Source: Acidobacteriota bacterium
GTDB lineage: Bacteria > Acidobacteriota > Blastocatellia > RBC074
NCBI GenBank assembly: GCA_016196035.1
Contig: JACPYM010000029.1
Coordinates: 186,001-250,000, forward strand
Length of the DNA: 64,000 nucleotides
Direction: 5' to 3'
Shown here: in pieces, positions 47,700 to 54,673 of the stretch
Layout: each line of letters begins with the position of its first letter
Position numbering within the stretch: the stretch's first letter is position 1
The notes under the pieces: model-generated
Database searches by the model: none
The model's input: only the letters and a program-made list of their open reading frames with translations
What the model was told of the DNA's origin: nothing
Program-made: the position numbers and the translations under genes

Positions 47700-50651
47700 C
47701 TAACGTCTGGTCACGACATAAAGCGGGAACGTTTTGAAGCCCGGCGGCAATTCAAACGTCGCGTGTTGCCGGTTGTTGGTCAACGCCAGGACGCGCTGGG
47801 TGAGCCAGCTTCCCAGTTTGTCCACGTAAACCAACCCGCCGCCTGTGCTCACCTCCGGGTTTCCGTTCAAGCCTTCGAGCAAGGCCCAAGTGAAAGCGCC
47901 GTGGCCTTTGTCGCGCAGTTCCTCGGCCTTTTCGTCATTGGAGGAAGCCGCGAAAAAGACGACGCCTTTGTAGGTGCTTTTCAATTCCTTGAGCGCTTGG
48001 GTCAGCCCGCCGCCGCCTTTCTGTTTGCCGGTTCCCGAAGCGGCGGCGGCGCGGCAGGAATCAATAAAGAGAAACGGCTTGGTGCCATTGACCGCCGTCA
48101 ACCCGTCGAGCAGCGTGCTCCATTTCACGTCGAACAGTTCTGGCTCTTCGTTGGCATCGTGTTCGTGCGCGTAAAAGAAATAGTTCTGTTTGCCGTCCAA
48201 TCCGCCGTGCCCCGACAAATACAACATCACCACATCGCCTTGTTTGGTGTTTTCGCGCAACCAGCGCAGGCCGCGAATGATTTCGGTGCGTGTGGCCTGC
48301 TCGTTGGCGAGCACTTTGGTGTGGACTTGATTGAATAACTGACCTTGTTGCGCCTGAAAGCGCGCGGCGATTTCGGCGGCATCCTTGTCGGCGAAATCCA
48401 GCTTGAAGGCGGGCTGTTTGTAGCTGGCGATGCCGACCGCCAGCAGGACGAGGTTGGGTTTGTCCTCATCACTGCCTTTGCCGGTATACGTGACCTTGCG
48501 CAATTCGGGCAACGATTCAGCCTTGCCATTCGAGGCAATCACGGCCAGCGTATTCGCGCCCGTTTGCAAGCGCACCTGCATTTCGACCTGACTGCCGTTG
48601 AGCGCGGCCACCTGCGCGCCGTTAAGCAGCAGCTTCATTTCAGCGGGCGGCAACGCGACGGGCGAGGCGCGTTTGGCGACGGCCTTGATCGTCAGCATTT
48701 CGCTCGCGGTGACGCTCTCTTCACGTTCGGGCGCGGTGATGACGACCACCGGCGGCAGCAACGTCAGCACATCTGGCGTGCTGTTGTTGTTGTTGGCGGC
48801 AAAGCTGGCCCCGCGCTTTTCATTCGCCGTCTTGAGCGCGAGTTCCAGATTGCCGCGCGTGCGCAGGTATTCGTTGACGACATCGGGGCGATAGAACTGC
48901 TCTTTGAATTGTGAGGCGGGGAAATAGTCTGCGGCTTGGTCTATGCCGTGATTGACGTGCCAGCCGATGTAGCGGTCGCCGTTGAGGCTGGCGGTGTAAT
49001 AACCCTGTGGCGTCCAGGCGACCCATTCGTTGTCTTGCGCGACAAAGATTGAGAGCAGCGGTTTGACCTCCTTTTCTTTAGACTCCAAATCCCATAGTCG
49101 AATCGTCTGGTCAGCAGAGCCTGATACCAGTGTGCGATTGTCGGGCGAGACCGCCACTGCCCGAACATCACCAGTGTGACCAACGAATTCGCGCAGCTTT
49201 TTGCCCGTTTGCATTTCGTAAAGTGTAAGAAAGCCACTAGCGGCCCCGCTCACGACCTGTTGCCCGTCACGGGTGAAACTAAAACAGTGATGAACAAAAC
49301 CAGAGGACGAATTTCGAGAGATTGTGCGTTCGACCTTGCCATTGCGTAGAATTTGCAAATTTGGGTCTGAGTCGTTGATTGTCTTAAGTGAGTAAGAACC
49401 AGTGCTGACATTCGCGCGTGTAAAGGCCGTTTCATCCTGAGGAGTGCTGTCGAGGTTCACTTTATAGCCTGTGTTAGTCTGGAACACGATGCTGCGCTGT
49501 AAGGGCCTACGTTGATTAGCATCTTTATCATCATCATCATCATTCTCGTTACCGAAAGCAATGGACTGGCTATCGTGAGCAAAACCGACTGCAAAAACCC
49601 TTTGCCCTTTTCCTGCAAGCATATGGGCGATTTGGCCGTTCTCAGGATTCCAAAGGTAGATTGGGAAGTTAGCCCCCCCAGCAGTCGCCACCAGTTTACC
49701 ACTAGGTGAAAAAGTGGTAGCGCGGACGATATTGTCGTGTTTGCCAAATCCCGTCACAATCGCGCCAGAAGGAAAAGCCAGTACATAACAGTTATAGCTG
49801 GGACCTTCACCGAACCCGGAAAGCAGGCGGCTACCATCAGGACTAACTGAGATGCTGAGTACTTGTGCCCCTTGCTGAGATAGCTCCTTAATGAATTCAC
49901 CCGTATGTGCATCCCAAAGCAGAACTCTTTTATCACCACCAGAGAATAAGAAACGCCCATCCGGTGAAAAGGCGACGCTGCTAACGTGGTCACTGTGTTT
50001 GTTCTCCAGGTCTTTGATCAGCGTGCCGTGTGCCGCGTCCCAAAGCTTTAACGTATAGTCATAGCTACCAGTCGCGATCTGTTTGCCATCAGGTGAAAAT
50101 GCAACAGCGTAGATTTCTTTGGTATGTCCGCGTAACGGTGGGTATGCCTCTTTTATTGGGTTCGCAACGAGGTCCCATATACGCGCGGTGTGGTCGCCGC
50201 TACCAGAAACTAAATAACGTCCATCTGGCGAGAAGGCGAGCGCAAGGATAATGTTGTCATGCCCTTTAAGTAACGTACCAACGACTGCGCCTGTACGGAA
50301 GTTATGTAGCCGAATAGCGGAGGCATTCGCCCGGTCCCCTACAAGCAATCCGCCAACCGCCAAATATCGCTCATCCGGTGATAGTGCCATCGCATAAATT
50401 TTCCCTTCGATACCATCGCCGATTTCCCCTTGAATGGTGCGGGCCAGCCGCCCGGTTTCGACATCCCAGACACGAATTACTTTGTCTTCTCCGGCAGAGA
50501 TCAGATATTTGCCGTCGCGCGTGAAAATCACTTTCCAGATAGTGGATGTGTGGCCGCCAGTATTGAGCACCAGACGCGGGTCGTCGGCACGAGCGCAGAC
50601 GGCGGCGGCGAGCAGCAAGAGCCAGAAGGAATGAAGGGGGATGTGTTTCAT
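47700..50651 (-). CDS. WD40-repeat protein with C-terminal caspase-like (peptidase C14) domain
   Basis: 983 aa. A signal peptide (MKHIPLHSFWLLLLAAAVCARA) is followed by about 12 WD40 blades (about 30-545; many SPDGRYLVSGSGDHTARIWD-type units), an Ig-like spacer (about 640-725) and a caspase fold. The dyad is His in MLYLSGHGG (about 812) and Cys in FIDSCRAA (about 863). An acidic D-rich run (NENDDDDDKDANQRR, about 369-383) is encoded by a trinucleotide repeat. The WD40 part (about 48.9-50.6 kb) is slightly more AT-rich than the caspase part. Such proteins resemble bacterial metacaspases; whether exported activity has a role in lysis or signalling is unknown. Confidence 0.92.
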   Translation of the reverse strand: MKHIPLHSFWLLLLAAAVCARADDPRLVLNTGGHTSTIWKVIFTRDGKYLISAGEDKVIRVWDVETGRLARTIQGEIGDGIEGKIYAMALSPDERYLAVGGLLVGDRANASAIRLHNFRTGAVVGTLLKGHDNIILALAFSPDGRYLVSGSGDHTARIWDLVANPIKEAYPPLRGHTKEIYAVAFSPDGKQIATGSYDYTLKLWDAAHGTLIKDLENKHSDHVSSVAFSPDGRFLFSGGDKRVLLWDAHTGEFIKELSQQGAQVLSISVSPDGSRLLSGFGEGPSYNCYVLAFPSGAIVTGFGKHDNIVRATTFSPSGKLVATAGGANFPIYLWNPENGQIAHMLAGKGQRVFAVGFAHDSQSIAFGNENDDDDDKDANQRRPLQRSIVFQTNTGYKVNLDSTPQDETAFTRANVSTGSYSLKTINDSDPNLQILRNGKVERTISRNSSSGFVHHCFSFTRDGQQVVSGAASGFLTLYEMQTGKKLREFVGHTGDVRAVAVSPDNRTLVSGSADQTIRLWDLESKEKEVKPLLSIFVAQDNEWVAWTPQGYYTASLNGDRYIGWHVNHGIDQAADYFPASQFKEQFYRPDVVNEYLRTRGNLELALKTANEKRGASFAANNNNSTPDVLTLLPPVVVITAPEREESVTASEMLTIKAVAKRASPVALPPAEMKLLLNGAQVAALNGSQVEMQVRLQTGANTLAVIASNGKAESLPELRKVTYTGKGSDEDKPNLVLLAVGIASYKQPAFKLDFADKDAAEIAARFQAQQGQLFNQVHTKVLANEQATRTEIIRGLRWLRENTKQGDVVMLYLSGHGGLDGKQNYFFYAHEHDANEEPELFDVKWSTLLDGLTAVNGTKPFLFIDSCRAAAASGTGKQKGGGGLTQALKELKSTYKGVVFFAASSNDEKAEELRDKGHGAFTWALLEGLNGNPEVSTGGGLVYVDKLGSWLTQRVLALTNNRQHATFELPPGFKTFPLYVVTRR

Positions 50652-50683
50652 CGGGTTTTACCTCACACAAAAATTGCGAAGCC

Positions 50684-50891
50684 TTTGGAGTGCGGCGGCT
50701 CGACGCCGCTTTGTTATACCACTCGCGCAGCCCAGCCGCTGGCGGTCACCAACTGCTTCCGCTTCTCTCGTTCGCTGGTGCAGAGCGGGAAGCCTCGTTC
50801 GCTGGTGCAGAGCGGGAAGCCTCGTTGTTCGGCCAAACGGCGCCATCACGAAGCGGCGTAACAAAGCGGCGTCGAGCCGCCGCACTCCAAA
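50684..50891. repeat. REPIN-like pair left of the RAYT (family A)
   Basis: The unit TTTGGAGTGCGGCGGCTCGA and its continuation (CGCCGCTTTGTTA) is at 50684-50717, and its inverted copy at 50859-50891. The GGAG tetranucleotide before a GCGGCG/CGCCGC hairpin is the hallmark of REPs served by RAYT transposases. Between the arms a 27-bp tandem duplicate lies at about 50768-50820 (TTCGCTGGTGCAGAGCGGGA...). Confidence 0.88.
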
Positions 50892-50989
50892 AGAGCCGCC
50901 GCACTCCAAAAGAGCCGCCGCACTTCAAAAGAGCCGCCGCACTCCAAAAGAGCCGCCGCACTTCAAAAGAGCCGCCGCACTTCAAAAGA
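50876..50989. repeat. Six tandem 19-bp repeats at the RAYT 3' side
   Basis: GCCGCCGCACTCCAAAAGA occurs six times head-to-tail (50876, 50895, 50914, 50933, 50952, 50971); copies 3, 5 and 6 have T instead of the second C in ACTCC. The unit is the outer end of the family A REP, amplified in tandem. There are no spacers, so this is not a CRISPR. Confidence 0.95.
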
Positions 50990-51006
50990 GGAGGTGCGCA
51001 CCAAAG

Positions 51007-51555
51007 TTAAAAGTCATCTAGCACTTTTACGGCATCTGTTTTGAAACTGTAAATCGTCCGCACCATGGCTGGTGTCGCCGTGCGCTCGAACCAGGCAGCG
51101 GAACCCCAACGGTATTGATTGGCGATGGGAACCAAGCCGTGTTTGACCGGGTTCTGATGCACATAATTCAAGCGCGCCAGATACGATTTCTCGAACGTCA
51201 GTTTCGTATCCCAATAGTTGAACCAGACGACACGGCCCGGTTTGTTGACCAGCTTGTTTAATTCGCGCGCCGTTTCAGAGTGCAAATGGTCTACCAGGTT
51301 TTTCAAGTTCTGCGCGCCGGCTGCGCTGCGGGCGACAAAGTGATAATGGTTGCTGAAGACCGCCCAAGCCTCCAATTGCCAGCCTTTTTCTTTGGCTAGG
51401 GTCAGCAGTGAGCTTTCCAGCAAATCCAACGCTGCCGGCGTTTTGAATAAATGCTGTTTGTAAATCGTCGTCCCTGTAAGCATAAACACTCCGTCTGACC
51501 CCAACCGGTGCAACGGCGCATGCGGCCAATCTTTGCTGGGTTGTAGCTCTTCCAT
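51007..51555 (-). CDS. REP-associated tyrosine transposase (RAYT, Y1/IS200-like)
   Basis: 182 aa. It has a single-domain HUH nuclease of the Y1 family: the His pair is in AWAVFSNHYHFVAR (HxH, about residues 70-72) and the catalytic Tyr in ARLNYVHQNPVKHGLV (about 131). RAYTs nick REP hairpins and are thought to mobilise REPINs. The gene is flanked on both sides by matching GGAG-type REPs, and its ribosome site (AAAGGGG) is provided by the edge of the right REP. The length is close to the normal RAYT size and the gene looks intact. Confidence 0.9.
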   Translation of the reverse strand: MEELQPSKDWPHAPLHRLGSDGVFMLTGTTIYKQHLFKTPAALDLLESSLLTLAKEKGWQLEAWAVFSNHYHFVARSAAGAQNLKNLVDHLHSETARELNKLVNKPGRVVWFNYWDTKLTFEKSYLARLNYVHQNPVKHGLVPIANQYRWGSAAWFERTATPAMVRTIYSFKTDAVKVLDDF

Positions 51556-51567
51556 TTGGATGTCCCC

Positions 51568-51761
51568 TTTGGAGTGCGGCGGCCCGACGCTGCTTTGTTA
51601 GGCCACTTGATTTTTACGAACCACGATTGTTGGCGGAACCTCCCGCGTGCCAGCCATGCGCATTTGCGGTGAGGTCAGACAGCCGGAAGCAAGGCTGGTT
51701 TTCCCATTCGCTCAATCGCTAAGTGGAGTGACAAGGCGTCGTCGAGCCGCCGCACTCCAAA
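51568..51761. repeat. REPIN-like pair right of the RAYT (family A)
   Basis: TTTGGAGTGCGGCGGCCCGA at 51568-51600 and an inverted, slightly degenerate copy at 51731-51761 (ACAAGGCGTCGTCGAGCCGC...). Together with 50684-50891 these form two REP pairs around the transposase. Confidence 0.85.
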
Positions 51762-51764
51762 GAG

Positions 51765-52670
51765 TTACGGCACCACGCACGGCCCGGCAGGCAGGAGGTG
51801 CGCTAGTGCGTCGTAGCGAATGATCTGGGTTTTCTTTACGTCTTTTTGTGGACGGGTGACCAGCTTGCGCTGGATGACTGGCGTGTCGCCGCACGGGTCA
51901 GCACCGCGCACCAGCCATGTCACACCCTCTTTGCCTTCCCAAACCAGCCAGGCTTCCTGCCCGTCTTTCAACGTTTCGACGCCGCCCAGATCGGCGACTT
52001 TGGGCAGCGATTTGTCTACGATAAGCACGCCGTAATTGACCGGCAGCAACAGAAACTGGATGGCAACCAAGAGGCCGAGCAACAAACATCCCGCCCGCGA
52101 CCACGCGGTTTGCGCGGCCAGACGGCGCGCCGCCAAGCACAGGCTGCCCGTCAACAGCAGGCCCGCCGTGAGCACGGTGAAATAGAACGCCGCCTTGTTG
52201 GCATCGAACAGCACCTCGCGCAAGCCCTGCGCCGCGGGCACGCAATCGGCCAGCAACAGATTGTGCAACGCGAAACAGTGGCGCATGAGGACTTGAATCA
52301 ATAGCACGGCAATCACGACGCCCAGCCACGCCAGCCGCCCCGGTTGCGCCCACCACGCGGCTACGCGCCCGCCCTGCGTGCGTAACCACGCCACGCGCCC
52401 CAGCAGCCATCCCAGCAAGAGAAACGGCAGACTCACGAGCACGACGTTGGGCAGCAGCGAGGCGAAGAAGATTAGAAAGCGCGCGCCGGTGAACACATAC
52501 CGTTCATCAAGCACACTCAAATCCGTCCCTACGCCGAGCGTGGTCAGATGAAAGCGCAAGGCCAGATAACCGGCGGCATAGAGCGCAAAACTGCCGAGCG
52601 TGGCGTAACCAGCCCAACCGCTCGACAACTCTTTCAGCTTGGCGGTCAACTCGTCGTAGGTATTCGTCAT
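51765..52670 (-). CDS. Polytopic membrane protein of unknown function
   Basis: 301 aa with about five transmembrane segments (about 22-42, 60-85, 105-125, 155-178, 190-210) and a C-terminal soluble domain of about 85 residues that contains a C..C pair (GADPCGDTP...PAGPCVVP). Not recognised. The ATG at 52670 was preferred because the upstream frame looks non-coding. The stop is 3 bases from the right REP copy, so the element inserted almost into the gene end. Confidence 0.6.
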   Translation of the reverse strand: MTNTYDELTAKLKELSSGWAGYATLGSFALYAAGYLALRFHLTTLGVGTDLSVLDERYVFTGARFLIFFASLLPNVVLVSLPFLLLGWLLGRVAWLRTQGGRVAAWWAQPGRLAWLGVVIAVLLIQVLMRHCFALHNLLLADCVPAAQGLREVLFDANKAAFYFTVLTAGLLLTGSLCLAARRLAAQTAWSRAGCLLLGLLVAIQFLLLPVNYGVLIVDKSLPKVADLGGVETLKDGQEAWLVWEGKEGVTWLVRGADPCGDTPVIQRKLVTRPQKDVKKTQIIRYDALAHLLPAGPCVVP

Positions 52671-52761
52671 AGCAACTCTTGAGGCATTGCTGGGGCCAGG
52701 GAACAGACTACCGAGAGCGAGCCAAAGATTAGTGCGCGTCCGGTAAAATCGCAATGCTTGG

Positions 52762-53010
52762 GACTGAAGCGGGTGCGTCAAAGTTTTGCACAGGCGGAAA
52801 CGAACGTTTCAGCGCGCGTAGCGCAACCTGCCGAGGTTGCGCGGTGTCGCAGCTACGGCCGCGTAGCGCAACCTGCCGAGGGTGCGCGGTGTCCAAGCTA
52901 CGGCCAAGGCTTCACTTGCGACACCGCGCAACCTCGGCAGGTTGCGCTACGCGCACCGCAGCCGCCCGGCTTGCCTTTGTGCAAAACTTTGACGCACACC
53001 CGACTGAAGC
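52762..53010. mobile_element. MITE-like element with 20-bp terminal inverted repeats and 9-bp direct repeats
   Basis: Termini GTGCGTCAAAGTTTTGCACA at 52773-52792 and its inverse at 52978-52997. The 9-bp sequence GACTGAAGC occurs immediately outside both (52762-52770 and 53002-53010), as expected for a target-site duplication. Inside are two direct copies (52816-52860 and 52861-52905) and one inverted copy (52917-52954) of a GCGTAGCGCAACCTGCCGAG-type hairpin unit. No coding capacity. Lies between hutU and the membrane-protein gene. Confidence 0.85.
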
Positions 53011-53020
53011 TGGTTTAAGG

Positions 53021-54673
53021 CTAGCGCATCGGAATCTTCAGCCCATGCTCCTGCGCTTCTTCAATCGCCTTCTCATAGCCCGCGTCTACGTGCCGAATGA
53101 TGCCCATGCCCGGATCGGTCGTCAGCACACGCCGCAAGCGCTTTGCCGCATCGTCTGTGCCATCCGCCACGACGACCATCCCTGCGTGCAGCGAGTAGCC
53201 GATGCCCACGCCACCGCCGTTGTGCACCGAGACCCACGAAGCGCCCGCCGCCGTGTTCACCAGCGCATTCAAAATCGGCCAGTCGGCGACGGCGTCCGAA
53301 CTGTCCAACATTCCTTCCGTCTCGCGGTAGGGCGAAGCCACCGAGCCGGAATCCAAATGATCGCGGCCAATCACGATGGGGGCTTCGAGTTCGCCCTTGC
53401 GCACGAGGTCGTTCAAGGCTTCGCCAAACGTCGCGCGGTCGCCGTAACCGAGCCAGCAAACGCGCGCGGGCAAACCTTGAAAATGGATGCGTTCGCGCGC
53501 CAGCTTCATCCAGCGTTCCAAGATTGGATCGTCGGGGAAGATTTCCAGCGCCAGATCGTCGGTGCGGCGAATGTCGGCGGGGTTGCCTGAGAGCGCGACC
53601 CAGCGGAACGGCCCGCGCCCTTCACAAAAGAGCGGGCGGATGTATTCGGGCACGAAGCCGGGAATCTCAAACGCATCCGTTACGCCCTGTTTCACCGCCT
53701 GCGCGCGGATGTTGTTGCCGTAATCGAAAGTCACTGCGCCCAGCCGTTTCAATTCGAGCATCGCCTGAACGTGCGCGGCCATCGCGGCCATTGAATGCTT
53801 GACATATTCGCTTGGATTGTCGCGCCGCAACATCAACGCTTCATCCAGTGTCATCCCATTCGGCACATAGCCATTCAACGCATCGTGCGCGCTGGTCTGA
53901 TCGGTCAGCACGTCGGGCACGATGTTGCGCCTGACCATCTCTGGCAGCACGTCGGCGCAATTGCCGACGAGGCCGACTGAAAGGGCGCGGCCTTGTTGCC
54001 GGGCTTCATTCAATAGCCGCAACGCATCGTCGAGGTTGTAACTGAGCGCGTCGCAATAGCCGGTGGCGATGCGTTTCTCGATGCGCGTGGGGTCAACGTC
54101 AATGCCCAGGAAGCACGCGCCGTTCATCGTTGCGGCCAGCGGTTGCGCGCCACCCATCCCGCCGATGCCGCCTGAGACGACGAGCTTGCCGTTCAGCGAA
54201 CCGCCGAAATGTTTGACGCCGACTGCGGCGAAGGTTTCAAACGTGCCTTGCACGATGCCTTGCGAGCCGATGTAAATCCACGAACCGGCGGTCATCTGGC
54301 CGTACATCATCAGGCCGAGTTTATCCAGACGATGAAACTCGTCCCAGTTCGACCACTGACCGACCAGATTGGAATTGGCGATCAGCACGCGCGGCGCGTC
54401 TTCGTGCGTGCGGAAGATGCCGACCGGCTTGCCCGATTGCACCAGCAGCGTCTCGTCGTTTTCCAGCGCTTGCAGCGAACGGACGAGGGCGTTAAACGCG
54501 GGCCAGTTGCGCGCGGCCTTGCCGGTACCGCCATAAACGACCAGGTCATCGGGGCGCTCGGCGACTTCGGGGTCGAGGTTGTTCATCAGCATTCTGAGCG
54601 CAGCTTCCTGCACCCAGCCTTTGCAACTCAGTTGTGTGCCGCGCGCGGCGCGAATCGGATTTCGTTGATTCAT
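53021..54673 (-). CDS. hutU: Urocanate hydratase
   Basis: 550 aa, cytosolic. It converts urocanate to imidazolone propionate with tightly bound NAD+, the second step of histidine breakdown. Seen: the N-terminal [32 protein letters not shown], the [13 protein letters not shown] dinucleotide motif, and late [19 protein letters not shown] plus [13 protein letters not shown]. The length equals the family norm. The start has AGAAAGG about 8 bases upstream. hutH lies 3 kb further on the same strand; other genes lie between. Confidence 0.97.

Follow-up and report, generated by a model that had tools for sequence, protein, structure and literature searches.

Within the 64,000-nucleotide stretch of acidobacterial DNA that we analysed (the window), an intact open reading frame on the minus strand (51007–51555) encodes a 182-residue RAYT transposase, a call made from the reading frame, family models and a structure match. 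A REPIN lies on each side of the gene (left, 50684–50891; right, 51568–51761), and a tandem array of 19-bp half-REPs on the minus strand (50874–50990; 6.2 copies with 96% matches by TRF) reaches from the left REPIN toward the gene. A promoter scan across the unit found none. The presumed ribosome site, AAAGGGG (51564–51570, minus strand), was located by eye and lies half inside the REPIN end and half outside; the first-pass annotation had credited this site to the right REP, which does supply the AAA, but the G run (51564–51567) sits just beyond the TTTGGAG end. On the minus strand to either side are genes for a 983-residue WD40-repeat protein (47700–50651), whose end looks caspase-like by eye, and for urocanase (53021–54673). 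A clear ortholog of the neighbour at 51765–52781, which might have revealed a site empty of the RAYT unit, was sought in 10 relatives and none was found. By eye, an 11-bp repeat, AGGAGGTGCGC, occurs both in the gap between the gene and the array (50989–50999) and beyond the right REPIN (51793–51803), and a 45-bp tandem duplication (93% matches) lies at 52815–52905.

Several lines of evidence confirm the earlier identification of the protein as an HUH transposase of the RAYT type. It passes the curated NCBIfam RAYT model NF047646 (83.3 bits; cut-off 80), matches Pfam Y1_Tnp weakly (24.3 bits; cut-off 23) and fails the IS200 model (17.7 bits; cut-off 55). The one PDB entry that its sequence matches is the E. 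coli REP transposase 4er8, and a fold search with an AlphaFold2 model built from 44 family members (pLDDT 87.6) again placed 4er8 first (E 7e-9), followed by the TnpA proteins of ISDra2 and IS608. The HUH motif N69-H70-Y71-H72-F73 (51337–51351, minus strand) is invariant at its first four residues across 44 aligned homologs, as are the catalytic tyrosine Y131 (51163–51165, minus strand) and N135 of the motif YVHQNP, which align with Y115 and N119 of E. coli TnpA-REP; a single tyrosine in a Y---NP motif is the mark of class 2. The gene is single-copy in its own genome, where the remaining Y1 proteins are at most 31% identical to it.

The two inverted REP pairs reported to flank the gene were both recovered by an inverted-repeat search (50684–50723/50852–50891, 93% complementary; 51567–51608/51721–51762, 83% complementary), and each pair constitutes a whole REPIN. 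On the left, the REP at 50684–50716 (plus strand) and the inverted REP at 50859–50891 (minus strand) carry an exact 30-mer in both arms, and the spacer contains a 27-bp tandem repeat (50767–50826). On the right, both the REP that starts at 51568 (plus strand) and the inverted REP that ends at 51761 (minus strand) have diverged, with 2 and 3 mismatches to the 30-mer, and the two REPINs are merely 66% identical to one another. The REP hairpin at this locus is GCGGCG-GCTCGA-CGCCGC. Allowing up to 2 mismatches, GGAGTGCGGCGGC occurs 13 times in the window, compared with 5.6 ± 2.1 in shuffled sequence (0 of 100 shuffles reach 13), and its six exact copies in the window are all at the RAYT locus.

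The array had been described as a REP end repeated six times. The 19-bp periodicity stands, but the repeated unit is a half-REP, consisting of a head and a single stem arm without a complete hairpin, and the head reads GGAG in three of the six units and GAAG in the other three. Because a GAG directly follows the REP and the REP loop carries another GAG one unit back, the array fits slippage, and replication slippage between the loop GAG and the GAG just beyond the REP is its most likely origin.

Had the REP motif occurred at this locus only, or beside transposases of another family, the RAYT reading would have been undermined. A count across the genome from which the window comes (9.6 Mb in 139 contigs), with the reversed pattern as control, gave 108 copies of TTTGGAGTGC (11 reversed), 20 of GGAGTGCGGCGGC (3 reversed) and 20 of the 30-nt REP at up to 3 mismatches (0 reversed), and 40 of the 61 REP loci examined form inverted pairs, so that the genome holds at least 40. 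The REPINs are thus a dispersed population. TGGAGTGC is absent from the flanks of all 13 other Y1-transposase loci of the genome. Twenty-five pairs make up subfamily A, 19 of them measuring 101–102 bp, with the hairpin GCG-N-GCGGC-ACAG-GCCGC-CGC, in which the bulged base N is free. The 15 other pairs include a group of 145–149 bp that carries the RAYT-locus hairpin. By eye, several REPINs appear to begin right behind a stop codon. A degenerate GAAGCCTGTGCTTATTTC, also noted by eye, lies farther out, upstream of type-2 arms (e.g. L195, L204, L208, L229 and L231), and is frequently found just past an apparent stop codon; an element with such an outlying GAAGCCTGTGCTTATTTC may formerly have been longer.

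Many of the REPs carry a further structure on their outer side. GNA-looped mini-hairpins (GGC-GNA-GCC or GACGC-GNA-GCGTC) stand directly 5' of 54 of 95 heads in this genome (0.6 in shuffled sequence), and forms with GNA or GNNA loops stand at 74 of 194 heads in clade II of the RAYT tree (1.5 shuffled), as against 0 of 63 in clade I elsewhere and 1 of 24 in three sister genomes; copies inside one genome are related, so that these counts are not of independent events. At the RAYT locus of the window there is just a short form, GCGAAGC (50676–50682, plus strand), which by itself is not predicted to fold. Hairpins of the d(GCGAAGC) type are exceptionally stable. We sought a description of a mini-hairpin 5' of REP heads in the literature and found none.

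It is possible, though we doubt it, that the mini-hairpins, which lie outside the REPINs, are insertion targets rather than parts of the element. The sequences flanking TTTGGAG are unrelated in sister genomes, subfamily A cores are oriented at random with respect to their outer arms (mean identity 0.640 direct and 0.641 inverted), and in one near-identical pair of REPINs (L185 and L207) the core is inverted between the outer arms, all as insertion into a target would have it. Against this, all 20 genomic copies of GACGCGCAGCGTC (0 in the reversed control) are followed by TTTGGA, which leaves no empty targets and links the mini-hairpin to the element here. A search with an empty-site pattern gave three matches, one of them adjacent, and the adjacent one resembles ordinary coding sequence by eye. 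The idea that the outer arms are free, pre-existing targets was rejected, as empty sites of the 13-mer were sought and none was found.

How individual REPINs change can be read in part from subfamily A. In 22 of 23 REPINs the two arms share their bulge base (permutation mean 9.05); for the inner 12 nt of REPINs no arm-to-arm concordance was found. Across the subfamily (L182–L241 and L309) this base varies from one REPIN to the next yet agrees between arms. L185 (G000:C6:106045-106145) and L207 (G000:C58:26584-26684), the near-identical pair, share 100 of their 101 positions although their flanks are unrelated, and their cores have opposite orientations relative to the outer mini-hairpins. In L196 and L233 the outer arms match over 14 and 13 nt, a little further than the conserved mini-hairpin extends, which would suit copying from one arm to its partner. 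A simple reading is that template switching within the quasi-palindrome would correct one arm from its partner and flip the centre; alternatively, the REPIN entered a composite site either way round. Part of the agreement between arms also comes from common descent of REPIN types. REPINs were likely mobile in the past, and the near-identity of L185 and L207 amid unrelated surroundings makes current activity plausible. The first-pass annotation had called the unit complete and apparently active; it is an authentic unit, and the word active draws on the intact reading frame together with this one REPIN pair.

A scan for homologs, using one genome per species, retained 80 loci at 52–69% identity from Acidobacteria, Verrucomicrobia, Planctomycetes, Armatimonadota, Hydrogenedentes and others. 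Most are adjoined by REPs of one design (T-GGA[G/C]-T-GC, stem, GC, TTT), in many cases only tens of bases from each end of the gene; the association in cis is thus kept across several phyla. The head TGGA[G/C]T, the GC foot and the CTTT tail are conserved, the head, foot and tail partly because the search pattern demanded them, and the stem differs through compensatory changes: among 63 distinct hairpins 93% of interior stem cells are paired, and double changes number 74 compared with 14.7 ± 4.8 after shuffling (0 of 500), although related sequences are not independent. Over 81 rows, the window's own among them, 57 loci have mostly GGAG heads, 18 mostly GGAC and 6 are undecided; the GGAC group is mostly verrucomicrobial (L107–L109, L113–L115, L119, L121, L126, L144, L153, L155 and others). 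The RAYT tree falls into two clades and requires 12 changes of phylum (minimum 5; 23.8 shuffled), which is consistent with some transfer between phyla, although mis-binned contigs and paralogues may also account for such changes. More distant RAYTs at L176 (G000:C70), L168 (G007) and L169 (G003), at about 30% identity, have in common a different flanking repeat, GAGTTCCGCCTTTAGGCGGT, which is a second REP family within the same bacterial family.

Among 147 genomes of the class, sorted by hand on REP counts, 13 of the 14 that carry a close RAYT are REP-rich compared with 14 of 133 others (p 2e-10); by genus the figures are 5 of 6 and 9 of 44 (p 0.005). The link is not one-to-one: a close RAYT is missing from 14 REP-rich genomes, and TTTGGAGTGC is not abundant in G005, which carries one. 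One could argue that the RAYT is genuine but that another agent, or a RAYT since lost, moves or maintains the dispersed repeats, the copies at the locus being secondary insertions. The REP-rich genomes without a close RAYT would agree with this, as would subfamily A, which with 25 pairs is commoner than the gene-side type; a RAYT with A-type REPs was sought in the assembly and not found. We nonetheless consider this explanation unlikely: most of the 80 homologs, in different phyla, have REPs of this one design next to them, frequently close to both gene ends, and chance insertion would not be expected to produce that. That the locus is a conventional IS200/IS605 insertion sequence, with MITE-like relics left by chance from its terminal hairpins, is more improbable still, for although IS200/IS605 TnpA belongs to the same fold superfamily and 9 canonical Y1_Tnp genes (78–112 bits) occur elsewhere in the genome, the protein falls far short of the IS200 cut-off and has Y---NP rather than Y---Q, and its gene has a single close copy in this genome and is flanked by inverted REPINs rather than by one LE and one RE.

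We are therefore confident that the locus is a REPtron, in which a low-copy, IS200/IS605-derived HUH/Y1 transposase sits between two REPINs of the repeat family that it serves, and the flanking hairpin repeats are probably its recognition target. By analogy with E. coli TnpA-REP, the RAYT would bind a REP as a folded single strand, comprising the hairpin and the tag 5' of its foot, would cut beside it by means of Y131 with the aid of H70, H72 and N135, and would rejoin strands so that inverted REP pairs spread; cleavage and mobility are thus attributed to the RAYT by inference from its relative.

What sets this REPtron apart is its presumed guide. The GGAG tetranucleotide had been taken as typical of RAYT substrates, an assumption that does not hold: published REP heads read GT[AG]G (PMC2817692, PMC6006769), a head that marks canonical REPs and is absent from subclass 2.6 and class 3 (PMC6006769), whereas the head here is GGA[G/C]T. 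The class 3 TnpA-Y1 5' foot is CnGA (PMC6006769), and CGTC repeats have no tie to transposases (PMC3733652). No GGAG-headed REP is named in the main texts consulted. Residues W94, Q95, E100, H101 and R104 of E. coli TnpA-REP have been discussed for guide recognition (PMC6006769), and in our alignment they correspond to W111, F112, D116, T117 and T120 of a presumed guide-reading strand, W111–T120 (WFNYWDTKLT; 51196–51225, minus strand). The tryptophan is kept and the residues at the other positions are changed, with Q95, H101 and R104 replaced by F, T and T; T117 and T120 are nearly invariant in the family, which has F, H or Y at position 112. The head and the residues presumed to read it thus differ in concert, which is correlation and not proof, and we class the locus as a variant REPtron with another guide; GGA[G/C] would then act as guide in place of GT[AG]G. 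Two further candidates were rejected. W or R at position 115 segregates with GGAG and GGAC (0.65), yet 15 GGAG rows have R and ancestry confounds the comparison, and the idea that TTTGGAG is as a rule immediately preceded by a CT cleavage site was dropped, since a C stands before most copies in this genome but the base varies freely in sister genomes. Tentatively, and with the odds rather against it, we propose a cross-phylum RAYT family whose guide code GGA[G/C] may be read by a W[FH]N-x-x-[ED]T-x-L-T surface, rather than GTAG by WQ...R, and whose substrate in one clade and this genome may be a double hairpin (GNA/GNNA mini-hairpin, guide, REP hairpin).

Comparison with known systems brings out what the unit shares with described groups and where it departs from them. 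It has the HUH/Y1 fold, the Y---NP motif and the flanking REPs with hairpin and 5' tag of E. coli TnpA-REP (4er8; GTAG REPs, subclass 2.2, PMC6006769), but differs in its tag (GGA[G/C] instead of GTAG), its HUH motif (NHYH instead of DHLH; PMC6006769) and its F/T/T in place of Q95/H101/R104. The eight cyanobacterial proteins of subclass 2.8 (PMC6006769) have in common with it NHYH, a tryptophan followed by an aromatic residue or H (WF here, W[YH] there) and a P/H-rich N-terminal extension (here WPHAPxH), whereas their YIHYNP and GT[AG]G REPs contrast with YVHQN[PA] and GGA[G/C] in the RAYT family described here, a contrast taken from the published description of the subclass. As in Pseudomonas fluorescens SBW25 (PMC3116915), where tandem REP arrangements are also known, inverted REP doublets are dispersed and accompanied by a cognate RAYT; SBW25 has hundreds of copies, and here there are tens, with a different head and outer mini-hairpins. 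Class 3 TnpA-Y1 proteins of Planctomycetes and Acidobacteria (PMC6006769) come from overlapping phyla and likewise accompany high-copy hairpins, but carry Y----Q and NHVH.

The type of selfish DNA is therefore a known one, and what is new is a recognition tag and presumed reading residues unlike those of the textbook REP/RAYT system. The prevailing view is that RAYTs recognise a short tag next to a DNA hairpin, and in one RAYT that has been tested a change of tag changed the cleavage site (PMC8266576). A large natural family with another tag, whose fourth base is G or C, with other residues at the presumed reading surface and with stems that are swapped but remain paired provides a data set for this code. 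The GNA mini-hairpin is a candidate additional structural element of REPs, and the biology of REPs and REPINs, until now mainly that of Proteobacteria, is extended to Acidobacteria, Verrucomicrobia and Planctomycetes.
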